From positions 1 through 64,000 of the forward strand of contig JACAAK010000004.1 in assembly GCA_025093985.1 (NCBI GenBank): a DNA stretch of 64,000 nucleotides. Direction: 5' to 3'. Shown in pieces: positions 1 through 20,395 of the stretch. The notes beneath the pieces are model-generated. The model had not been told where the DNA came from. It saw only the letters and a list, made by a program, of their open reading frames with translations, and did no database searches. The position numbers and the translations under genes were made by a program. The DNA is from Calvatia gigantea. Its lineage: Eukaryota > Basidiomycota > Agaricomycetes > Agaricales > Lycoperdaceae. Position 1 is the first letter of the stretch. Each line of letters begins with the position of its first letter.

Positions 1-215
1 GTTGACATTTGTCAACTGTTCCATGGATCGAGTTAATTATACTCATCCCCAAGTATAGCGCGATCCTACGCGTTCTATTGGTTTGGTAGGTACTGATGGA
101 TAATCAGAGCGCCTGATGAGTCTGTCATAAGACGAAACAGGTGGCTGGGGTAGCTCCCCAGCCTGTTGCGCTGTCTCTTCCATCAGACAACTCAACGGTT
201 TTTAGGAATCACCTC
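1..215 (+). mobile_element. End segment of hammerhead-bearing element, copy A (window edge truncates it)
   Basis: This segment recurs at 5013-5227, 5228-5430 and 20180-20395 with high identity by eye. It starts inside the element, because the longer copies have about 290 more bases upstream. Its right side runs into the stop codon of the minus-strand zinc-finger gene. Copy C (5228-5460) keeps bases corresponding to the last codons of that gene, so the gene and this end segment belong to one element. It carries the best-preserved hammerhead motif. Confidence 0.8.
93..186 (+). ncRNA. Hammerhead self-cleaving ribozyme, type I, copy A (all core positions present)
   Basis: The plus-strand RNA has the complete hammerhead layout. 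The core box CUGAUGA is at 113-119. Stem II is GUCU (120-123) with AGAC (130-133) and a 6-nt loop. GAA is at 134-136, followed by A15.1 (137) paired with U16.1 (166). Stem III is ACAGG/CCUGU plus CUGGGG/CCCCAG with a UAGCU loop and a 3-nt bulge. Stem I is AGCGC (108-112) with GCGCU (168-172), an internal loop, then CUGAUGG (93-99) with CCAUCAG (180-186). H17 is U167, so cleavage is predicted between 167 and 168. Helix I is open, making it type I. The reverse strand does not form the motif. Activity is inferred, not shown. Confidence 0.85.
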
Positions 216-1982
216 CACCCCCTAACCCCGTCAACGCATCAATCTCTGCTGTGATTTCACCGAGAGCGCGAGTATGGAGAGCCCCGATTGCCTCCAGTGC
301 TAATTCTTCACCGTTAATGATAGCAGACTTTCCTGAGAGGTCAGGTGCGTTGAAATAGAGCGTCGATTGTTCAGCTGAATGGAGGCTTGAGAGACCACGT
401 TTGAGAAGATAGAGACCAGGCATTATCGCCTCCGTCCTCTCGAGAAAATACTTCTCAACAGTTTCAAACGCACTGAAAAGGTTCTTCAGACAGATACTAA
501 GGGAGGAGAATAGTGTACATACTCGGAGACAGAACAATTAGCTTCCCTAATCTCGTTGTGGATCTTCCATGCAAAAACGAGCTGGCCAGTAAATAAGACA
601 GCAGCGATGTTGTGGGTGATAGCCCCTGGCAGAGCCCATTGTCCATCTTTTCGCAGGGCGGAGAGGAGGATGTAGTGGACTAGAGGACTGAAGAACTCGC
701 CTTGAAGGTCACCCGACGGAGTTTGTGTGAAGAGGAAGAAGAGAAGTCAGGTGAGGTGGTCGCTGGTAATGGATGCGCAGTCGAATGGAGTTGATATAGG
801 AGTCATGCTGGTCATGGGCTCATCCTCTTCACCGATATCAGAATCATTGTCAGAGTCGTAGGTATACAAAGCCTCTTGTAAGTCCTCCCATTCAGCTTTG
901 GTGATATCTTCATCATTCGGCAGTGGTTTCAGTGAAGAGACGAGGTCCTTGCACGCTGACGCGATATTGGGACACACAGGAAAGGTGTACCTGGATGAGG
1001 TCTCGGTGACTACGCGATGGATACAGGCAATAGCGCCAGCAACAATCCGACCATACGCGTCAATTGTCCCTGGATTCACGCTCCTGTGATGACGGACTTG
1101 TGTTTGATCATGTTCCTCTGCGGGGCGAGTGCTGATGAGCCGACGCAAGTAGTATGATTGTGTGGCATCTTGCATGTCAAGTAGAAATGCCGAAACATGT
1201 TTGTGTAGCGCCCCGTAAACGGGGTGGAAAGATGAATACGACACGAGCGGGATTAGATCTTCATGCTTGTGGCCTTGTACGCGCTCAATCCATCGTTCCT
1301 TGTGAAGGAACTGGTGGAGAACGCGATAATTTTCGTTCTTGGCAGGCATGTGTTGTGTTTCATTAATACGTCGTATGTCCTGTTGGTATAGGAACCAAGG
1401 ATCATGAACCGGCAATGGAAGAGGAGGTGGTGATTTGACAGGAAACCAGGAGCTTCCGTTGTGGTTCATAAAGCGTTGCACAAAAGTGGTCGTGGACGAT
1501 GGAGAGGGGTTGGCACACCTATGAAGGTCAAATGTCCTCCGGGAGACGTAAGAGTGGTGACATGTGGTGCATTGTGTGTAATTGGGAAGGGGAGGAGCGA
1601 GACCGTAAAGTGGCTCGACAGCATTGATGGGCCGAATAGGATGGTACGTGAGATCAGGGTATTGGCTGAGGATGTCGTGTTCAAGCTCCTTTTGAAGATC
1701 ACGCTGGGTCTTGAACTCCTTGTGGCGCTCAACAAAATGAGAGCGGACATCGAGTGGGTTGATGATGCCTTGGCACCCAATGCAGATAAGGGTGTGGTGT
1801 ACAACGTTGATGATGAGACCGTGCTCTTGTAGCAGCGGTGTTTGTACTGAGTGCTCGCTGTGGGGGTGAGGGGCGTGTGTAACTGAATTGGACGATGGAG
1901 TGGAGGGATGAATGGGGGGTGGAGGCGGGTGAGCGTGTGCAGTGCAGGGGGGATCTTCGGAGATGGAGGAGTCGTGAACCAC
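202..1982 (-). pseudogene. OrsD/DUF3505-like zinc-finger protein of a mobile element, recently broken
   Basis: The frame reads from an ATG at 1982 through a proline-rich start to two zinc-knuckle-like motifs. The first begins CIGC and ends in a His-x4-His pattern about residues 67-88; the second is CTTC...HRC about residues 139-157. Acidic and conserved C-terminal stretches follow. This resembles the OrsD-type (PF12013/DUF3505-like) proteins that are abundant in mushroom genomes. An in-frame TGA at 747-749 interrupts it, and the same frame continues with convincing protein (FLFTQTPSG..., ALPGAITHNIAAVLFTGQL) to about 523. A 26-nt segment (497-522, GTATGT...TTAG) must be skipped to keep the frame to the stop at 202-204. 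It is too short for a normal intron, so it may be an indel. One substitution (CGA to TGA would fit) explains the stop. An upstream coding part beyond 1982 is possible. Function unknown; probably nucleic-acid binding. Confidence 0.6.
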
Positions 1983-3499: not shown

Positions 3500-4721
3500 A
3501 AGCATAATAATGCTAGGGTAATGACCCAAGGAGATGTATATATGATGTTGGATGAAATTGTAACAAGACTCATATATATGTGGTCTATGCCTGTAGGAAA
3601 TCTTTACCCTATTCTCTAAGAATTTCTCTACAGTTCTCAGCTATTTAATCTGACTACAGCCACTCTATGAAATCTGCTGTATTACATCTCAGCCAACCTC
3701 AGACCTCTGCCAATTGCCCTTATATATATAAATATTTGTACCATATTCAATTTCCATACTAGATACCAAGTCTTATTGAAGAAAGTTATTTAAGGGTGAT
3801 ATACATGACATTAGAGGGGTTAATGAGTGATGTACAATTAATGTAAACTACAATGTTAATCAGAATAGCACAGGATTGGTCAGAGCTGACTAAGATTTGT
3901 CAGCAATGCCTAAGCATTTATAAGCCTTCCTCCTACTCTATGATGCTGAGCTGGCCAGTTGTGAGAACTAACTAAGCAGAAAACTTCCCACTGCCTATTC
4001 TTCCACTCTCTAATGCCTAAGGGCTAGCCCAATTATTATATAGTATTTGTCAGAACTGACTAGGCAAAAAACTTCCCACTGTCCATTCTTCCACTCTCTA
4101 ATGCTTGAAGGCTGGCCAGATTATCAGTTTGGCCAAACATTGTTGATAACATAATTATGCATTAAAATAGATGTAATACTAAGAGAAAAATTAATAAACT
4201 TAAAGTGTAACTTGAATAACTGCTTAGATTAAAGTAACTAGAAGGACTAAAGTACTGCCCATGCTGAAGGCATGGAATCTGGCCTAGTCATATAGAAGGG
4301 AGGGAGAAGGGCATGTGATTAGTAAGGTACAATTACTAATCTAGTGTGATGTCACAGATTTCAACAAGTTTCTGACTCTTTACCTCAGTTGCTGGTCTTT
4401 TGTTGATTTATCTCTGTTCCTCTCTCATCTAGCTCACCAACCACTACTTCAATCTCTTGGCTACTTTACTCAACAGGCTACTTATATTAGGGCTATACAC
4501 TTGCCAAATTTCAGGGAAATCTGAATACCTTTTGGTTATCCTCCTTAACTGGCTTTCTTGGCCTTGAAGACTACTGGCAGTGTGGAGCAACCAAATCAAG
4601 GTACCCAGTGGTACCCAGCTTGGGTACTTTCTAAAATGATGTCCTTTATCTACTCACCAAGTTTGAAGCAATTCTATCACCATCAGGTGCAGTGCTAGCG
4701 CTGCACCCAACTAATGTAGTT
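3500..4721. other. AT-rich gene-free stretch with a short direct repeat
   Basis: No credible gene. Two copies of a segment of about 90 bp with AAAACTTCCCACTG and CTTCCACTCTCTAATGC occur at about 3945-4030 and 4045-4130. A related CTGACTAA.ATTTGT word recurs at 3890 and 6820. Confidence 0.5.
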
Positions 4722-5227
4722 AGGCTGATAGATGGACTAAGGGACTGTCCGAGCTGGACTGTTGCGTAAATAACCTGCCACGGTATGTACCCCGCCTTCA
4801 GTTGTCAAGCTGATGACATCGTTAGGTACTTGGTACGTTCATTTCATTATTTCAGTAATGTTCGTATTTAAGTGCATGGGCGCTTAATGGGCGCCCCGCA
4901 TTTGGGCGCTACGCGGGTGCTTAAGTACAAGTTTTTTCCTTTACTTTTCTTTCCTGACGATAAATTAAGCGCCCACAAGCGCTTGATTTTATGGGCGCTT
5001 TTTAAGCGCTCGCTGACATTTATCAGCTGTTCCATGGATCGAGCTATTTACGCTCGTCCCCAATAATAACGCGAACCCTCGTGTTCTATTGGTTTGGTAG
5101 GTACTGATGGATAATCAGAGCACCTGATGAGTCTGTCATAAGACGAAACAGGTGGCTGGGGTAGCTCTCCAGCCTGTTGCGCTGTCTCCTCCATCAGACA
5201 ACTCAACGGTTTTTAGGTATCACCTCC
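4722..5227 (+). mobile_element. End segment of hammerhead element, copy B (long form)
   Basis: It begins AGGCTGATAGATGGACTAAG and matches 19891-20395 closely over the whole length. The first 150 bp are followed by a GGGCGC/GCGCCC-rich structured part (4874-5012), then the hammerhead unit. No open frame of interest. The shared first bases in two independent copies suggest that 4722 is close to a true element end or a conserved internal boundary. I could not identify a target-site duplication. Confidence 0.75.
5104..5197 (+). ncRNA. Hammerhead ribozyme motif, copy B (core intact, one stem I mismatch)
   Basis: CTGATGA is at 5124-5130, stem II and GAAAC are intact, and stem III is kept with one G.U pair. 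The outer stem I CTGATGG (5104-5110) pairs with CCATCAG (5191-5197). Predicted cleavage is between 5178 and 5179. The base next to the stem I junction is A where copy A has G, giving an A.C mismatch that may weaken it. Confidence 0.8.
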
Positions 5228-5460
5228 TCTCAACTGTTCCATGGATCGAGTTAATTATACTCATCCCCAGATATAGCGCGATCGTATGCGTTCTATTGGT
5301 TTGGTAGGTACTGATGGATAATCAGAGCACCTGATGAGTCTGTCATAAGACAAAACAGGTGGCTGGGGTAGCTCCCCAGCCTGTTGCGCTGTCTCCTCCA
5401 TCGGACAACTCAACGGTTTTTAGGATCTCCTCCTACCCACCCCCATCAATGTATCTTATC
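5228..5460 (+). mobile_element. Second, tandem hammerhead unit of the element, copy C
   Basis: A head-to-tail repeat of the last part of copy B, starting at CAACTGTTCCATGG. Cleavage sites in B and C are 207 nt apart. It also keeps about 35 bp that align with the 3' coding end of the zinc-finger gene at 205-240 (CCCC.TCAA.G.ATC), which ties the gene to the element. Confidence 0.75.
5311..5404 (+). ncRNA. Hammerhead ribozyme motif, copy C (core G12 lost, probably inactive)
   Basis: CTGATGA is at 5331-5337 and stems II and III are intact, but the GAAAC box reads AAAAC, so the invariant G12 is A. In CpG context this is a deamination-type change. Cleavage is not expected. Confidence 0.75.
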
Positions 5461-7440: not shown

Positions 7441-10400
7441 TATGGGGGCTTGTTGGAATCGCCTTCATGAGTACTATTTAATGCTAATTAGACTGTAGTG
7501 AGCGCTTCACAATCTGGGGAGATATATCACCATCTTCCATTATAATACTTTCTATCATAGCACAACAAGTGCTGAACGTACCGCCACGTTTTTGCACTCG
7601 TTAGAAGCCGCTTTGAAACTCGAACAATTCAAAAAAAACACCGTGTCAATCCGTTCATTTCTTGTGGAGTTATTGTCTATTCTTTTTATATTCAACTATC
7701 TATGCTGCCAGAAGTTGTCCTTGATGACAAAATTTCTGCTACTATGTGCTGCTTGTAGAATCTCTTCTATGATGACACTTACTTCAGTGGGGGGAGTACT
7801 CTCACAGTATATTAATCCACACATTCATCCACAACGAATGGTGTCCACCACTCCAATATTCCCACACTCAATCAGTCACTGTCAGTAGTTGTTTAGCCAG
7901 TACTGGGGGCCACTGTTGCCCAACCATAATATATTATACCCCGTTAGAATCGCCTCAATGAGCTCTTTCCAACGATATCAAAATCATAATAAATGGATAC
8001 CTTGTCAGTATGTTAATTCACCATCTGTACAATAAAGCCAGTGTCATAGCAAGACATATACCCATCAGAGTAGCATCCGCAATATATTGTTGAAATGCGG
8101 CCGCATTTACAGTTAATTCGCAAAAAAGACTGAGTCAATAGCTGTAGCCATTGAATTGCTATAGAATACTTTGTATATCTCACAGAAATGACTAGGAATT
8201 GAATAGAAGCTCAACACCTCACCGGAATATAATGTATTTATGGTCGTTAGGATCCTCTTGATTAGGACTATCCAATGCACCTCTGACCGTAATTATCGCC
8301 TCAATATTCATTGAGTTATGGCATCATCATTGAAAATGAGGGTTTTTAACATAGCATTGCAACTACTGAGCGTGTCGGCCCGTATTTGGGTGCGTTTAGA
8401 ACCGGCTGAAAATCCGAACAATTCAATAAAGAGACCAGGTCAATCCGTCGAGTTCCTGAGGAACTATTTCATTATCATTGTTTCATTAGTGTTCTGGGGA
8501 TTCATTCACACAGATTCGTCCAAGACGAATTGATGTGTGCACCACTCAAACATTCCCACAGGTAGCGAAGGTCTGAAGCACACTGATTTGTCTTCGTCTT
8601 GGACGAATCTGTGTGCATGGGTCTCCAGAACACCAATGAAACAATGATAATGGAATAACTTCACAAAAACTCCACCGATCTGCTCAGTCTTTTTTTCAAA
8701 ATGATCGGATTTTCAGCCACTTTTCAACGCATCTAAATACGGGCCGACACACGCAGTAGCTGTGCTGCTATTTAATTACTTAGTATATCTAATGATCATG
8801 CTATAACTCAATGGGTATTTTAGCGATCACTACGGTACAAATTGCGTTGGATAGCCCTTATTAAGCGGATTCCAACGAGCCCAAATACATCATGCTCTGT
8901 CAAGGTGTCGTGATTCTACTCCATGGTTAGTGTTTCTTGTTAAATATACAAAGTATTCTACAACAATTCAATGACTGCAGATATTAACTCGGTCATTTTT
9001 TTACATTAACCGGAATTGCAGCCGCATTTTAACGAAATATTGGGAATGCTACTCCGATGGTTATATGTCATGCTATGGAGCTGGCCTTTATCACAGAGAT
9101 ATTGAATTATTATGCTAACGAGGGGATGGATTACTACAGCCTTGGTATTATTGGATAGAGCTCATTGAGGCGATTCCATGAGGTACAATACATAGCAATT
9201 GGATTGCAGGGGCTACCAGTACTGCCCCAACAGCACTGACAGCAACTGTTGAGTGTGGGAATATTGGAGTGGTCCACACCATTCGTCGTAGACGAATGTG
9301 TGTACACTGGTACCTCAATTTATCATGGAAATACTTCATCTTGGATGAATGGGTGTGTACCAAGTCCAGTTCACAGTGGCAATATTGGACAGGTGCACGC
9401 CCATTCATCCAAGACGAATGCATGTGCATCAGACCCCGCTGGACTGTGGGAAAATTAGAGTGGTGCACACATCAATTCGTCTTAGACGAATCTGTGTGCA
9501 TATGAGTTCTCAGAGCATTAAATATAGGATGATACTGGAATAATTCCACCAAAAATGAACGGATCCACTCCGTCTTTTTTTTAACTTGTTCGGATTTGCA
9601 GCGGCTTTCTATCGACTACAGATATGGGTTGATACGTTCATTTACTGCGGCACTATTCTGAAAACACATATTTTCAATGTTATTGCTATAACTCACTCGA
9701 TACCAAAGTGATCATCTCGGTCTGAATGCCATTGGATAGCACTCACTGAGCGGATTCCAGCAAATCTAAATACGTTATATTCCGATGAGGTACTGTATTT
9801 CTACTGTATTCACAGTATTTTCCTCCAAATAGACAAATAATTCTATAACAATACAGTGGACGGAGATAATAGCTCAGTCTCTTTCGTAGTAATATGATAT
9901 TAACAGGCAGCTTTTAATGAGATACTGGGGGTATTGCTCCAAAGATTATATGGTATGCTGTGAGGCCATTGTCTTATTAGAGGAATGCTGGAATATTATT
10001 GCAGGGAGTTGGCGGATTTTTACGGTCATGGCACTGTTAGAGAGAGCTCATTGAGGTGATTACAACGATGCATAATACATGATGATTGGGCAGCAGTGGC
10101 CCTCTGTATGAGCTGTACAACTACTGACAGTGAATGATTGAGCGTGGGAATATTGGAGTGGTCCACACCATTCGTCCAAGACGGATGTGTGTGCATTGGT
10201 ACCTCCATTTATTAAAATATTGGAGTGGTGGGCACTCATTCTTCTTGGACAAATGTATGTACCAAGTCCAGTTCACAGTGGGAATATTGAACTGGTGCAC
10301 CACCATTCGTTCAAGACGAATCAGTGGGCATCAGACCTCAGCTAACTACTGTGGGAATATTTGACTGGTGCACACATCAATTCGTCTTGGACGAATCCAC

Positions 10401-13400
10401 ATGCATATCTCCAGAACACTAATTCTAGAATGATAATAAAATAACCTCACGAGAACTGGACCGATTGACTTGGTCTTTTTTTTGAACTTTTCGGATTCTT
10501 AGCCAGTTTTCAACGCACCAATATACGGGCCGATACGCTCAGTATTTGTAGTGCTATGTCAAAAACCCGCATTTTTAATGATCATCCTATAATTCAATGA
10601 GTATTGAGCCAATCACTACAGTCTGAAGTGCGTTGGATAGTACTCGTTGAGTGGATTTCAACGAGTATAAATTCATTATATTCCAATCAGGCATTGAGCT
10701 TCTATTTAATTCCTAGTATTTCTGTGAAATGGACAAAGTATTCTATAGCAATTCAATGGCTGCAGCTATTGACTCGGTCTTTTTTGTGGATTGACCGGAA
10801 ATGCAGTCGCATTTTAACGGAGTATTGAGGATGTTACTCCGATGGCTATATGTCATATTATGGAGCTGGCCTTTATCAGAGATGTTGAATTATTATGCCA
10901 ACAAGTGGGTAGATTACTACGGTCTTGGTATCGTTGGACAGAGCTCACTGAGGCGATTCTAACGAGGTATAATACATGATGATTGGATTCCAGTGGCACC
11001 CAGTACTGGCTCAGCAATTACTGACAGTGACTGATTGAGTGTGGGAATATTGGAGTGGTCCACACCATTCGTCCAAGACGAATGTGTGTGCATTGGTACC
11101 TCAATTCATTATGGAAATACTGGAGTGGTTCACACACATTCATCTTGGATGAATGAATGTGTACCAAGTCCAGTTCACAGTGGCAATATTGGACTGGTGC
11201 ACGCCCATTCGTCCAAGACAAATGGGTGTGCATCAGACCTCACTGGACTGTGGGAAAATTAGAGTGGTGCACACACCAATTCGTCCAAGACGAGTCTGTG
11301 AATGAATCCCCAGAACACTAATCAAACAATGATAAGGAAATAACTTCACAGAAACTCGACGGATTTACTTGCTCTTTTTTTTGAATTGTTCGGATTTCTA
11401 GCAGCTTTCGAACGCACCAAAATGCGGGCCGATACCCTCCGTAGTTCTGATGCTATGTCAAAAATATCCACTTTCAATCATGATATTATTACTGAGGCCA
11501 TCACCACGGTCTAAAGTGTGTTGGATAGTGCTCATTGAGTGGATTTCAACGACCATAAATACATTATATTCCGGTCAGGCATTCACCTTCTGTTCTATTC
11601 CCAGTATTTTCTATCAAATATACAAAATATTATATAGCAATTCAGTGGCTGCAGCTATTGGCTCCGTCCTTTTTGTGAATCCATCGGAAATGCAGCCGCA
11701 TTTTAACCAGGTATTGGGGATGCTACTCTGATGAGTATAGATAATTCAATATACGAAGATACAGCAATAACTCCATAGAAAATGAACGGATCAATGCCGT
11801 CTTTTTTTTAAATAGCTCCAATGCCAAAACCCTTTCTAACGAGCCTAAAACCGGGCTGGTACGTTCAGTATTTGCTGCGCTATTTCACATACTATTATCA
11901 TAACAGATAGTGTTATATCTATTTAGATACTGGACCATTCTTTGCGGTCTAACTACCATTAAATAGTACTCATTCAGGTGATTCTAACGAGCCCCAATAC
12001 ATTACATTTGGATGATGTATTACTATTCTGCTGGGATATTGTGGGGACAGTGCATGCCACAAATCTCCTATTGTACAAGGGGCTCACTAGTACTAAAATA
12101 TGATGTTCAACCAATCCATGATATGAGGTTCACTATAGGTATACTATAGTACCAGGAATTTGATTGTCAAGAACAATTTCTGGCAGCATAGAGAAGTGAA
12201 TTTAGAAAGATACAGCAATAACTTCATGGAAAATGACCGGATTTGTGTGGTCTTTTTTTTAATTTGCTCGGGGCTAAAAGCGCTTTCCAACGAGTCCAAA
12301 AGCGGGTTGATACGTTCAATACCCCTTGCGCCACCTTACATAGTATCATTATAAAAGATAGTGTTATATCTTCTCAGATACTGAAGCGTTCTGTATAATC
12401 TGACCGCCATTAAATAGTACTCATTAAACCGATTCCAACGATGCCCGGCACATTATATTACAATGATGCGTTGGTTTTCTACTGTCTTCAGAGTATTTCC
12501 ACCTAGGTAGACAAAATATTCAATAGCTCTTTAATGTCTGTAGGTATTGACTTCGGATTTATAGCCACTCTCCAATGAAGCATTGGGGACATTAGCACAA
12601 TGATTATATGGTGGGATGTGAAAACAAAACTGTTGAGTATGTCAGTGGAAAGTGTGTGCAACATGCAGGGGTTAGCATGATATATAAGCATTGAAGTGAG
12701 ATCCCCAATACCATAATGAAATGCAGCTGCTATATGAATCAATCTCCGAAAGAGACCGAGTCAATACGTGGACCAGTTGAATTGTTATAGAATACAGTGT
12801 ATATTTTATAGGAAAGATTAGGAATGGAGTAGAGGCACAAGGACTTATCGGAATATAATGTATCTGGACTCGTTAGAATCCGTTAAATGAGTACTATCCA
12901 ACGACATTTAGACTGAAATGATCGCTTCAATATCAAGTGAGTTATAGCAGTATCATTAGAAATGTGGGTCTTTGAAATAGTGTGGCAACAAATGAACGTA
13001 TCGGCCCGTATCTGGAGTCGATAGAAAGCCTCTACAAATCCGAACAAGATAAAAAAAAGACAGAGTGGATCTGCTCATTTTTGGTGGAGTTATTCCATTG
13101 TTATTCTTTATTCAATGTTCTGGAGACTTATGCACACAGATTCATCTTGGACGAATTGGTGTGTGCACCACTCTAATTTTCTCACAGTCTAATGAGGTCT
13201 GATGCACACCCTTTCGTCCAAGACGAATTAGTGTGCACCAGTCCAATATTCCCACTGTAAACTGGACTTGGTACACATCCATTTGTCTTGGATGAATGAG
13301 TGTGCATCACTCCAGTATTTCCATAATAAATGGAGGTACCAATGCACACACATTCGTCTTGGACGAATGGTGTGGACCACTCCAATATTCCCACACTCAA

Positions 13401-16400
13401 TCAGTCACTGTCAGTAGTTGTTGAGCCAGTACTGGGGGCCAATGCAATTCAGTCATCATGTATTATACCTCATTAGAATCGTCTCAATGAGCTCTTTCCA
13501 ACGATATCAAAATCATAATACATGGATACCTTGTCAGTATGTTAATTCACCATCTGTACAATAAAACCATTATCATAGCAAGACATATACCCATCGGAGT
13601 AGCATCATAAATACATTGTTGAAATGTGGCTGCAGTATCTATTAATGCTCAAAAAAGACCGAGTCAATAGCTGTAGCCATTGAATTGCTATCGAATATTC
13701 TGTACATTTCACAGAAAATAGCAGGAATTGAATAGAAGCTCAACACCTCACCGGAATATAATTTATTTATAATCGTTGGAATCCCCTCAATGAGCACTAT
13801 CTAACGCACCTTAGAACGTGGTGATCGCCTCAATACTCATTGAGTTATGGCATCATCATTGAAAATGCGGGTTTTTGACATAGCACCGCAACTACTGAGC
13901 TTGTCAGCCCGTATTTGGGTGCGTCTAAAAGCGGCTGAAAATCCGAACAGTTCAAAAAAAAAAAACCAAGTTAATCCGTTGAGTTTCCGTGAAGTTATTT
14001 CATTATCATTCTGAAATTAGTGCTCTGGGGCATACACAGAGATTCGTCTTGGACGAATTGGTGTGTGTACCAGTCAAATATTCCCACAGTTAGCTGAGGT
14101 CTGATGCACACTGATTCGTCTTGGACGAATGGGGGCGCACCTGTCCAATATTCCCATAGTGTACTTGGTACACACCCATTTGTCCAAGACGAATGGATGT
14201 GCACCACTCTAATATCCATGATAAATTGAGGTACCAATGCACACACATCCGTCTTGGACGAATGGTGTGGACCACTCCAATATTCCCACGCTCAATCATT
14301 CACTGTCAGTAGTTGTACAGCTCATACAGAGGGCCACTGCTGCCCAATCATCATGTATTATGCATCGTTGTAATCACCTCAATGAGCTCTCTCTAACAGT
14401 GCCATGACCGTAAAAATCCGCCAACTCCCTGCAATAATATTCCAGCATTCCTCTAATAAGACAATGGCCTCACAGCATACCATATAATCTTTGGAGCAAT
14501 ACCCCCAGTATCTCATTAAAAGCTGCCTGTTAATATCATATTACTACGAAAGAGACTGAGCTATTATCTCCATCCACTGTATTGTTATAGAATTATTTGT
14601 CTATTTGGAGGAAAATACTGTGAATACAGTAGAAATACAGTACCTCATCGGAATATAACGTATTTAGGCTCGTTGGAATCCGCTCAGTGGGTACTATCCA
14701 ATGGCATCTACACCTAGATGATTGCTTCAGTGTCCGGTGAGTTATAGCAATAACATGAGAAACATGTGTTTTTAAAATAGCGCTGCAGTAAATGAACGTA
14801 TCAGCCCGTATTCGAGGTCGATAGAAAGCGGCCGCAAATCCGAACAAGTTAAAAAAAAGATCGAGTGGATCCGCTCATTTTTGGTGGAGTTATTCCAGTA
14901 CCATTCAATATTTAATGCTCTGAGGACTCATGCATACCAATTCGTCTAAGACGAATTGATGTGTGCACCACTCTAATTTTCCCACAGTCCAGTGGGGTCT
15001 GATGCACATCCATTCATCTTGGACGAATGGGCGTGCACCAGTCCAATAATTCCACTGTGAAACTGGACTTGGTACACACCTATTCATCCAAGATGAATGG
15101 GTGTGCACCACTCCAGTATTTCCATGGTAAATTGAGGTACCAGTGCACACACATTCGTCTTGGACGAATGGTGTGGACCACTCCAATATTCCCACACTCA
15201 ACAGTTGCTGTCAGTGCTATTGGGGTAGTACTGTTAGCCCCTGCAATCCAATTTCCATGTATTGTACCACGTTGGAATCGCCTCAATGAGCTCTTTCCAA
15301 CTGTACCAACACCGTAGAAATCCGCCTATTCTCTGGCATAATATTCCAGCATTTCTCTAATAACAAGGTGGCTCCATAGCACATCATGTAATTATTGGAG
15401 CAACATCCACAGTATCTCATTAGAGGCCACCTGTAAATTTAATTAGTCTACAAAAGGGACCGAGTAATTATCTGCAGCCATTGTGTTGTTGTCAAATTAT
15501 TTGTCTATTATGGGTAAATACTATGAATGCAGTAGAAATGCAATACCTCAACGGAATCAAATGTATTTAGGCTTGCTATAATCCGCTCAATGAGTGCTAT
15601 CCAACGTCATTTAGACCGAAGTGATCGCTTTAGTATCCAGTGAGTTATAGCACTATCATTAGAATGTGGGTTTTAGAAATAGTGCCGCAATAAATGAACG
15701 TATCAGCCCGTATCTGGAATAAATAGAAAGCGGTTGAAAATCCGATCATTTTAAAAAAAGACTGAGCAAATCGGTGGAGTTTTTGTGAAGTTATTCTATT
15801 ATCATTCTATATTCAATGTTCTGAGGACTTATGCACACAAATTCGTCCAAGATGAACAAGTGTGCACCACTCCAGTATTTCCATAATAAATGGAGGTACC
15901 AATGCACACACATTCGTCCAAGACAAATGGTGTGTACCACTCCAATATTCCCACACTCAACTATTCACTGTCAGTAGTTGTAAGACTCATACAGAGGGCC
16001 ACTGCTGCCCAATCATAATGTGTTATACCTCGTTGTAATCGTCTCAATGAGCTCTTTCTAACGGTACTAATACTGTAGGAATTGACTTACTCCCTGCAAT
16101 AATATTCCAGCATTGCTCTAATAAAAACATGGCCTCACAGCATACCATATAATCCTTGGAGAAACATTCCCAGTATCTCATTAAAGGACACCTGTTAGTA
16201 TCATATTTCTACAAAAATGACCGGGCTATTATCTCTGTCCACTGTATTGTTATAGAATTATTTGTGTATTTAGAGGAAAATACTGTGAATACAGTAGAAA
16301 TACAACACCTCAGCGGAATATAACATATTTAGGCTCGTTGGAATCCGCTCAATGAGTACTATCCAATGGCGTTCAGACCGAAATGATTGCTTTGGTGTCC

Positions 16401-19375
16401 AGTGAGTTATAGCAATACCATTAGCAATATCTGTTTTTGAAATGGCACCGCAGTAAATGAACATATCAGCCCGTATTTGGAGTTGATGGAAAGCCGCTAC
16501 AAATCCGAACAAGTTAAAAAAAAGACCGAGTGGATCAGTTCATTTTTGGTGGAGTTATTCCAGTACCATTCTATATTGAACACTCTGAGGACTAATTGCA
16601 CACCAACTCGTCCAAGACGAATTGATGTGTGCACCACTCTAATTTTCCCACAGTCCAGTGGGGTCTAATGCACATCCATTCGTCTTGGACGAATGGGCGT
16701 GCACCAGTCCAATATTGCCACTGTGAACTGGACTTGGTACACACACATTCATCCAAGACAAATGGCGTGCACCACTCCAATATTCACACACCCAATCATT
16801 CACTGTCAGTAGTTGTAAGGCTCATACAGGTGGCCACTGCAATCCAACCATCATGTATTGTACCTCGTTAGAATCGCCCCAACAATCTCTTTTCAGTGGT
16901 ACCAAGACCATAGAAATCTGTTCACCCATTAGTCTAATAATCCAACATCTCTGTGATAAAGGCCAGTTCCATAGCATGATATAACCATCGGAGTAGTATT
17001 CTCAATATTTCGTTGAAATGCGGCTGCAATTCCGGTTAATGTGCAAAAATGACCGAGTCAATAGCTTCAGTCATTGAATTGTTATAGAATACTTTGTATA
17101 TTTAACAAGAAACACTAAGCATGGAGTAGAATCATGACAACTTGACGGAACATAATGTATTTGGGCTCGTTGGAATCCGCTTAACAAGGGCTATCCAACA
17201 GAATTCAGACCGTAGTAATCGCTAAAATACCCATTGAGTTATAGCATGATCATTAGATATACTGAATACTTAAATAGCAGCACAGCTACCGCGCGTATCG
17301 GCCCGTATTTAGACACGTTGAAAAGCGGCTGAAAATCCGATCATTTTGAAAAAAAGACTGAGCAAATCGGTTGAGTTTCTGTGAAGTTATTTCATTATCA
17401 TTCTTTCATTAGTGTTCTGGAGATTCATGCACACAGATTTGTCTTGGACGAATTGGTGTGTGCACCACTCTAATTTTCCCACAGTTAGCTGAGGTCTGAT
17501 GCGCAGACATTCGTCCAAGACAAATGGGTGTGCACCAGTCCAATATTGCCACTGTGAACTGGACTTGGTACACACCCATTCATCCAAGACGAATGAGTGT
17601 GCACCACTCCAATATTTCCATAATAAATGGAGGTACCAATGCACACACATTCGTCCAAGACAAATGATGTGCACCACTCAAACATTCCCACACTCAATCA
17701 GTCACTGTCAGTAGTAGTAGGGCTCGTACAGGCAGCCACTGCTGCCCAATCATGATGTATTATACCTCGTTGTGATCGCCTCAATGAGCTCTTTCTAACG
17801 GTACCAGGACCGTAGAAATCCGCCTACTCCCTGCAATAATATTCCAGCATTCCTCTAATAAAAACATGGCCTCGTAGCATACCATATATAATCCTTGGAG
17901 CAACATCCACAGTATCTCATTAAAAGCCTCCTGTTAATATCATATTTCTACAAGAGAGACAGAGCTATTATCTCTGTCCACTGTATTGTTATAGAATTAT
18001 TGTGTATTTGGAGGAAAATACTGTGAATACAGTAGAAATACAGTACCTCATCGGAATATAACGTATTTAGGCTCGTTGGAATCCGCTCAATGAGTACTAT
18101 CCAATGGCGTTCAGACCGAAATGATTACTTTGGTGTACAGTGAGTTATAGCAATATTATTAGAAATATGTGTTTTTAGAATGGTGCCGCAATAAAGGAAC
18201 GTATCAGCCCGTATCTGGGGTTTATAAAAAGCCGCTGCAAATCCGAACAAGTTAAAAAAAAGACCGAGTGAATCCGCTCACTTTTGGTGGAGTTATCCCA
18301 TTATCATTCTATATTCCATGTTCTGGAGACTCATGCACACAGATTCGTCCAAGACGAATTGATGTGTTCACCACTCTAATTTTTCCACAGTCCAGTGGGG
18401 TCTGATGCACATCCATTCGTCCAAGACAAATGGGTGTGCACCAGTCCAATATTGCCACTGTGAACCAGACTTGGTACACATCCATTCATCCAAGACGAAT
18501 GTGTGTGAACCACTCCAGTATTCCCATAATGAATTGAGGTACCAATGCACACACATTCGTCCAAGATGAATGGTCTGCACTATCCCAATTTTTCCCACAC
18601 TCAATCAGTCAATGTCAACAATTGCTGAGCCAGTACTGGTAGCCCCTGCAATCCAATCACCATGTATTATACATCGTTAGAACCGGATCAGAGAGCTCTT
18701 TCCAACGGTATTAAGACCGTAGATATTCGCCTACTCTCTGCCATAATATTTTAGCATTTCTTTAATAACAAGGTGGCTCCACAGCACTCCAGGTAGTTAT
18801 TGAAGCAACATCCCCAGTATCTCATCAGGGGCTTCCTGTAAATGTGAGTGATCTACAAAAGTGACCGAGTAATTATCTGCAGCCATTGTATTGTTATAGA
18901 ATTATGTGTCTATTTTGGGGTAAATACTATGAATACAGTAGAAATACAGAGCCTCAATGAAATATAATGTATTTGGGCTTGTTGGAATTAGCTCAATGAG
19001 TACTATTCAACGGAATTTAGACCGAAATGATTGCTTTAGTATCCAGTGAGTTATACCAATAACACCATAAATGCGAGTTTTTGAAATAGTGCTGCAATGA
19101 ATGAAAATATTGGCCCGTATCTGGAGTCGCTGAAAGGCCACTGTCAATCCAAACAAAATGAAAAAAAGTATGAGTAGATCTGCTCATTTTTGGTGGAGTT
19201 ATTCCAGTATCATTCTATATTTAATGTTCTGAGGACTTATGCACACCAATTTGTCTTGGATGAATTGGTGTGTGCACCACTCTGATTTTCCCACAGTTGG
19301 GTGAGGTGTGATGGACATCCATTTGTCTTGGACAAATGGGTGTGCACCACTCCAATATCACCCCCAGTCCATTCC
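7440..19375. repeat. Macrosatellite of about 900-bp units with palindrome clusters, in blocks of opposite orientation
   Basis: Palindromes of the type ATTCGTCTTGGACGAAT or ATTCGTCCAAGACGAAT occur in clusters of 2-4 at about 65-75 bp spacing. Clusters lie near 7.82, 8.51-8.61, 9.28-9.49, 10.17-10.40, 11.07-11.30, 13.14-13.37, 14.04-14.27, 14.94-15.17, 15.84-15.93, 16.60-16.77, 17.44-17.67, 18.34-18.57 and 19.25-19.34 kb. Between clusters, conserved blocks recur (GGCCCGTAT..., GAAAATCCGAACA plus an A-tract, AAAGACCGAGT, CTCAATGAGCTCTTTCCAA). Units at about 8.58-12.3 kb read opposite to those at 7.6-8.57 and 12.9-19.3 kb. Open frames here are repeat artefacts that recur on either strand. No gene. 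Confidence 0.85.
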
Positions 19376-19800: not shown

Positions 19801-19890
19801 TTTTTGACCCCTATGACCCCTAATGTCCAACTCACCTAGATAACCTCCCCTAACAATGGTGAGTGGAACCGGCCTTGTCTCGTGATGCGC

Positions 19891-20395
19891 AGGCTGATAG
19901 ATGGACTAAGGGACTGTCCGAGCTGGACTGTTGCGTAAATAACCTGCCACGGTATGTACCCCGCCTTCAGTTGTCAAGCTGATGACATCGTTAGGTACTT
20001 GATGCGTTCATTTTATTACTTCAAGAATGTTCGTATTTAAGTGCGTGGGCGCTTAATGGGCGCCCCGCATTTGGGCGCTACGCAGGCACTTAAGTACAAG
20101 TTTCCCTTACTTTACATTTTCCTGATGATAACTTAAGCACCCACAAGCGCTAGGTTTTTGGGCACTACTTTAGCACTCGTTGGCATTTGTCAACTGTTCC
20201 ATGGATCGAGTTATTTTTGCTCATCCCCAATAATAACGTGATCATTCACATTCTATTGGTCTGGTAGGTACTGATGGATAATCAGAGTGCCTGATGAGTC
20301 TGTCATAACACAAAACAGGTGGCTGGGGTAGCTCCCCAGCCTGTTGCGCTGTCTCTCCATCGACAACTCAACGGTTTTTTAGGATCACCTTCTTC
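19891..20395 (+). mobile_element. End segment of hammerhead element, copy D
   Basis: Full-length match to 4722-5227, starting with the same AGGCTGATAGATGG and ending after CTCAACGGTTTTTTAGG. The single-copy gene part is absent. It lies directly after the CCCATTCCC minisatellite. Confidence 0.75.
20271..20363 (+). ncRNA. Hammerhead ribozyme motif, copy D (decayed)
   Basis: CTGATGA is at 20291-20297 and stem III is intact. Stem II is broken (ACAC instead of AGAC) and G12 is A. Stem I is preserved through a G.U pair (AGTGC with GCGCT). Expected to be inactive. Confidence 0.7.

Follow-up and report, generated by a model that had tools for sequence, protein, structure and literature searches.

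What carries the hammerhead ribozyme motif found at the very start of this Calvatia gigantea sequence, and does self-cleavage take part in how that carrier is multiplied? To address these questions, we examined the window (64 kb, the first part of a 4.37-Mb contig), the copies of the motif elsewhere in the genome, and the ends at which these copies join their surroundings. Our results indicate that the hammerhead very probably belongs to the pseudo-LTR (pLTR) of a Penelope-like retrotransposon of the Coprina/Terminon type, which attaches to telomeres, lacks an endonuclease and resides in a basidiomycete, and that all four copies in the window are incomplete, either truncated or cut.

The hammerhead motif and its surroundings

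Judged by its letters, the sequence at 93-186 is a real hammerhead motif, for which self-cleavage is predicted (Table 1). It contains the CUGANGA and GAA core (CTGATGA at 113-119, GAA at 134-136), the A15.1-U16.1 pair (A137-U166), H17 (U167) and three helices. All the invariant positions listed in the earlier note were located here, as were its perfect stem II (GTCT/AGAC, 120-123 with 130-133; 4 bp and a loop of 6 nt) and its two-part stem I, in which GCGC at 109-112 pairs with 168-171 and, beyond an internal loop, CTGATGGA at 93-100 pairs with TCCATCAG at 179-186. Stem III does have the 11 bp claimed for it, but not as a continuous helix; it comprises 3 + 8 bp interrupted by a 3-nt bulge, GGU, at 140-142. 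Similarly, the motif occurs four times in the window, as had been proposed, but it is fully paired with an intact core in the first copy only. In copy 2 the hammerhead keeps its core letters, but stem I contains an A-C mismatch and stem III a C-to-U change; that of copy 3 has the same stem I mismatch together with a change of GAA to AAA; copy 4 has lost GAA and one stem II pair.

Table 1. Features of the window (E, coordinates on the reference copy described in the next section)
Feature	Position	Strand	Remarks
3' end piece of retrotransposon, copy 1	3..214	+	E 4848-5059 of the C56 copy, 92.5%; 5'-truncated or cut by contig start
Hammerhead ribozyme motif, copy 1	93..186	+	intact core, all pairs formed; cleavage predicted between 167 and 168
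Element tail 3' of ribozyme, ACAACTCAACGGTTTTTAGGAATCACCTCC	187..216	+	most mapped copies end at E 5052-5063
Telomere-like CCCCCTAACCCC	218..229	+	separates element from OrsD-like flank
OrsD-like ORF	747..1982	-	PF12013, E 1.9e-4, below Pfam cut-off; flank, outside element
Copy 2, 5'-truncated	4722..5229	+	hammerhead 5104-5197
Copy 3, 5'-truncated	5230..5434	+	head to tail behind copy 2; hammerhead 5311-5404
Copy 4	19841..20393	+	begins within element's internal telomeric tract; hammerhead 20271-20363

A strict descriptor, which demands the core, GAA-A, U-H, a stem II of 4 bp or more, a stem III of 3 bp and a stem I of 4 bp, matched once on the two strands of the window, at 113, and in 0 of 200 dinucleotide shuffles. 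The covariance models of Rfam 15 returned no hammerhead at E <= 1 when the 64 kb were scanned. A scan of 171 nt gave a sub-threshold type III hammerhead (21.0 bits against a gathering score of 48.5, E 0.022), which covers 105-143 only, in a register that omits the actual stem III and the cleavage side, and a relic copy at L046 also scored below threshold (19.4 bits, E 0.086). The earlier note had counted the lack of an above-threshold covariance-model match against the motif and, taken literally, this is the outcome. The identification therefore rests on the descriptor, the low diversity of the motif and its copies; a covariance model that does score high, R1, was built from such copies and is hence no independent test.

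The hammerhead had also been assigned to the terminus of a fungal mobile element linked to an OrsD-like gene. The first part of this proposal stands, since the copies share the hammerhead, but the link to the gene does not. The DNA holding the OrsD-like gene (231-2200) matches in full only itself; four other places match it over ~350 nt, at 69-70%, and 65 of the 66 genomic places with the ribozyme motif are away from it. With no second full-length copy of the OrsD-like DNA and a ribozyme at 66 places, an OrsD-linked element is ruled out.

Other repeats are found beside the copies or between them. One that ends in GCGCTGCACCCAACTAATGTAGTTAGG, or close to it, adjoins truncated copies at differing element positions (window ~4690-4722; L020, L021, L022 and L034), and another, ending in ACCCCTAATGTCCAACTCACCTAGATAACC, adjoins copies at window ~19810-19841 and in L018, L054 and L055. 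Fold-back repeats with arms of the TCCAAGACGAA type occupy 8122-9000 and 9334-18500 and are probably hairpin or MITE-like subtelomeric repeats; the microRNA families that Rfam offered at these two places score below gathering and were rejected as fold-back repeats.

An element at chromosome ends

As a yardstick we used the C56 copy (L015:3318-8380, 5063 nt), whose coordinates are given as E. It consists of an ORF of 1269 aa with a reverse transcriptase (RT), counted from the first ATG, followed by a 3' UTR, a short internal telomeric tract, the hammerhead and a C-rich tail; full-length copies have an additional pLTR with a hammerhead upstream of the ORF. Many of the motif copies have an open frame on their upstream side. 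The RT frame has 39 genomic matches, four of which cover residues 1-1269 without stops. Its relatives comprise 308 proteins, mostly unnamed or fungal hypothetical proteins and some annotated reverse transcriptases, and the named ones among the 120 listed come from Agaricus, Leucoagaricus, Armillaria and Lentinula. RVT_1 was matched by 12 of the 27 relatives that were aligned. The element's own RT had no Pfam match at E <= 0.01, nor at E <= 0.1. The motifs YIDD, TDKNLG and IPKIHK were observed, which would suit an RT of the Penelope/telomerase clade. No endonuclease was found among the six families matched by the 27 aligned relatives, and none of the 27 has a GIY-YIG-like pattern, the absence that marks endonuclease-deficient Penelope-like elements. 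The element is probably Penelope-like, and its likeness to Coprina is one of description rather than of compared sequence.

The internal telomeric tract lies at E 4495-4520 (L015 ~7812-7837); it is also present at the end of L046 and the start of L050, and is recognisable even in the strongly diverged relic. Searching the PDB by sequence gave no match for the single RT protein and weak matches only for a profile. Two of the RT relatives, P0110 and P0058, show weak similarity to Drt3a, an antiviral RT of bacteria (E 3.2e-9 for P0110, 2.9e-6 for P0058), with scores that fall far short of the cut-off. No relatives with DNA context were found in viral contigs, searched by pattern and RT alignment, or in genome contigs, searched by RT alignment.

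We searched the whole genome for copies with a 32-nt core pattern, allowing up to 3 mismatches. The pattern was found at 66 places, and its reversed control at none. None of the 66 copies is more than 93 kb from a contig end, and 44 are within 10 kb; for two of the 66, on a 43.9-kb contig, being within 93 kb is trivial. Their orientation relative to the contig end is identical in 65 of 66 cases (binomial p 2e-18), the sole copy of opposite orientation being the decayed relic at L046. The 3' end of the element is on chromosome-end DNA and its 5' end points toward the telomere, while the hammerhead stands directly before the 3' tail, as in Terminons. Telomeric repeats of this genome are TTAGGG with up to three additional G. 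The pattern C2-7TAAC follows the tail within 30 nt in 17 of the 66 copies, against 972 of 200000 random 30-nt windows (0.49%), although behind 8 of these 17 tails the bases could belong to the internal tract of the following copy. Copies also form head-to-tail arrays. At the end of one contig (L013:1-54), 54 nt of inverted element lie distal to telomeric repeats, likely an assembly fold-back.

Could these copies instead be a non-mobile subtelomeric satellite, holding the motif by chance and spread by recombination among chromosome ends? Subtelomeres do recombine, and many copies are short units of ~200-560 nt. Yet such a satellite is already contradicted by the RT copies that have the same 3' end, and fixed 3' ends, graded 5' truncation, the RT frame within the element, telomeric junctions and the splicing-like loss described below all speak against it. 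We regard it as very improbable and favor the retrotransposon.

Integration ends, pLTRs and the cleavage site

If cleavage shaped the copies, their ends should show it. For a junction map, E was aligned to the fetched stretches, which hold part of the genomic copies, and blocks with identical flanks were merged, giving 87 blocks. The 3' end is in the C-rich tail in 69 of them, 33-51 nt beyond the cleavage site; 18 end elsewhere, including pieces truncated where a fetched stretch stops, and none of the 87 ends at the cleavage site itself. Among 67 defined 5' ends, four are full length (five before de-duplication) and 13 fall within the internal telomeric tract (E 4493-4515). None begins at the cleavage site (E 5009-5017), and cleavage as the definer of 5' ends is therefore unsupported. 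By pattern, the upstream neighbor is telomeric repeats within 16 nt in 16 cases and the tail of another copy in 25; the 26 that match neither pattern count against our main reading. A re-scan anchored on 75 tails yielded 14 starts at E 4945 or beyond (4957 to 5035), again with none at 5009-5017; its very short tails, starting at E 5019, 5024 and 5035, are absent from the count of 67.

Decayed tails of two kinds (L018:9528; L017:4378, L020:5891 and L026:4343) may, by weak alignments, begin within ~2 and ~5 nt of the cleavage position, and for this reason we speak of no clear start at the site. These tails, for which the L020 and L026 positions are minus-strand coordinates, represent an older relative; L017, L020 and L026 have one flank in common, and CTAACCCC flanks three of the tails.

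Fixed 3' ends, scattered 5' ends and telomeric junctions are the features of an element whose copies are added onto the ends of chromosomes. What is new is that hardly any integrated copy begins or ends at the cleavage site; cleavage is apparently not required for integration.

The full-length copies offer a second view of the RNA that was integrated. Two elements have no mismatch between the 5' pLTR and their own 3' pLTR, the alignment having 472 matches and 7 gap columns in one and 465 matches without gaps in the other; a third has 2 mismatches beside 295 matches and 1 gap column. The distance of the first of these elements from other units is 3.4 to 9.4%. The junction from tail to ORF is identical in five of five copies. 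All three observations would be expected of a retrozyme-like route, in which the RNA cuts itself at each hammerhead, closes into a circle and is copied by RT into a pLTR-ORF-pLTR unit with equal pLTRs; a linear RNA gives no account of the equality within pairs. However, the margin of the third element is small (99.3% within its own pair versus 98.7% to other units), and neither C74 (over 141 comparable nt) nor C45 (which starts at E 20) has its own pLTR partner as best match. A further objection comes from a 52-nt stretch, GTGAGT...CTAAG, that is missing from the 5' pLTR in all three informative full-length copies (C56, C77 and C74) and retained in their 3' pLTR where fetched; one circle would not yield both forms. 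The presence of an RT sets the element apart from retrozymes, which are non-autonomous units that lack one. Given the loss from 5' pLTRs only, we lowered the circular-RNA route, which we now consider unlikely, and kept it as a rival to the linear RNA that we prefer.

The 52-nt stretch is kept by 15 other units (Fisher p 0.0012) and six further units begin inside it; the unit at L018:9017 was left out of the spliced count since it begins within the stretch. The simplest reading of the loss is the splicing of a cap-near intron in the integrating RNA. Alternatively, it may be an inherited deletion between GG repeats. On either reading, an uncut ribozyme seems to have gone through an RNA stage, and three full-length copies that combine a splicing-like loss with a retained, uncut ribozyme are a new observation.

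Selection on the ribozyme and its possible role

Is cutting by the ribozyme under selection? Across 55 copies, pairwise diversity is 3.7% in the ribozyme region versus 10.1% in the 78 nt upstream. Within the ribozyme, variable cells make up 3.1% of the core, 3.3% of the stems and 1.8% of the loops in the same 55 copies, which counts against our main reading; the core changes fall largely on CpG sites and within a single sub-family. The stems are paired in 97.9% of cells, over 19 pairs with few independent events. Double changes affect two of the 19 pairs, a number reached by 257 of 500 shuffles, though none of the 500 has as many double-changed cells or as high a covariation score; both comparisons involve few events among near-identical copies. 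At the stem III pair 145-161, 7 of 25 distinct aligned copies have U-A in place of C-G, which speaks for our main reading. The stem I double change of the L046 relic consists of two CpG-type changes that are possibly neutral. The core, GAA, stem II and UH are all kept in 45 of the 66 copies. Seven of the 66, with differing 3' flanks, have in common one ribozyme with two inactivating changes. Such sharing of a dead ribozyme by seven insertions, likewise new, means that loss of ribozyme activity does not prevent multiplication, in trans at least.

These results bear on the possibility that the hammerhead persists for its structure at the 3' end, for RT recognition or exposure of the tail, with self-cleavage weak or irrelevant. 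This would suit the absence of a clear integrated end at the cleavage site, the seven insertions with a dead ribozyme and a core as variable as the stems. It would also suit the predicted MFE fold (-45.4 kcal/mol), which buries the core in a GCCUG/CAGGU helix, the hammerhead fold being at -37.0 kcal/mol. In the available part of one report, catalytic mutants of a lizard Penelope element left insertion in vitro unaffected (PMC11167929), in agreement with the integration record described here. Yet structure alone would not need the catalytic letters that 45 copies keep, and we hold this explanation to be possible but doubtful.

Returning to a telomere-attached element with a hammerhead predicted to cleave, we propose that the C-rich 3' tail of its RNA would anneal to the G-rich chromosome end, that RT would copy toward the 5' end of the RNA, usually stopping early, and that the new end would be capped by telomere repeats. 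The integrating RNA would be mostly uncut. A cut at the 3' ribozyme would sever the tail from the RNA, and one at the 5' ribozyme would free the ORF RNA from its pLTR leader; thus, cleavage and template function would be mutually exclusive. We infer that a role of the ribozyme in mRNA release or down-regulation is more likely than one in integration.

A more speculative model, which we rate as improbable, makes the hammerhead a built-in switch. A conserved helix of GCCUG (111-115) with CAGGU (138-142), built by core bases together with the GGU bulge, which would otherwise be superfluous, would keep the genomic RNA uncut while the C-rich tail primes on the telomere, and refolding would cut the 5' copy to give ORF RNA. 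The bulge is invariant (0 of 165 cells changed, with CAGGTGG in 66 of 66 copies), a count that the search pattern favored. Energy prediction prefers the core-burying helix in both the window copy and the relic, but the folding program ignores hammerhead tertiary contacts; therefore, this helix is a lead only.

Hammerheads in fungal Penelope-like elements are already published. Cervera and de la Pena are said to have described hammerheads of Penelope-like elements in 2014, with fungal and protist variants stable as monomers. Coprina, reportedly described by Gladyshev and Arkhipova in 2007, is said to comprise endonuclease-deficient, telomere-associated Penelope-like elements of basidiomycetes; by description, the Calvatia element resembles it in its basidiomycete host, telomere attachment and RT without endonuclease. 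Penelope-like elements at chromosome ends are mentioned for Agaricus bisporus in the accessible part of another study (PMC7473861).

The earlier note knew of no pairing of a hammerhead with an element of the kind it proposed. The pairing of a hammerhead with a telomere-attached Penelope-like element has been described for the Terminons (Athena) of bdelloid rotifers. According to the sections available, these endonuclease-deficient elements have a 3' hammerhead followed by a stretch complementary to telomeric repeats, and they share with the Calvatia element its chromosome-end attachment, 5' truncation by telomeric repeats, head-to-tail arrays and end architecture (PMC6431247). They differ in reaching up to 40 kb with accessory ORFs (PMC6431247), whereas the Calvatia element is ~5 kb with one ORF of 1269 aa, fungal TTAGGG-type repeats and a full stem III. 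The usual hammerheads of Penelope-like elements are minimal, without helix III or tertiary contacts, in the portions available of two reviews (PMC6155905, PMC7761336), which also regard their role as unknown; the one in Calvatia lies in terminal repeats as they do, but has all three stems. Retrozymes, as portrayed in the accessible text, also have hammerheads in repeated units but no RT (PMC7229834, PMC4918200), whereas here an RT is encoded in the same unit. Five type-3 hammerheads are listed for Pleurotus ostreatus, in the part available without a link to elements (PMC5040776). In the literature searched, as far as its available text extends, we met no hammerhead in a fungal telomere-attached element, which is not a claim that none is in print.

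Overall, the 3' end of a telomere-attached element is an ordinary place for a hammerhead, and the kind of element is already known from rotifers and other fungi; the interest lies in how the integration ends tally with the cleavage site. What hammerheads do in Penelope-like elements and Terminons, and how active they are there, is still a mystery according to the available part of a review (PMC7761336). Dozens of countable integration ends and near-intact full-length copies in one fungus make the timing of cutting relative to telomere attachment directly testable. If the switch were true, fungal chromosome ends would record, copy by copy, which transcripts stayed whole. The element also provides a clear fungal example of chromosome ends built jointly by retrotransposon copies and telomere repeats.
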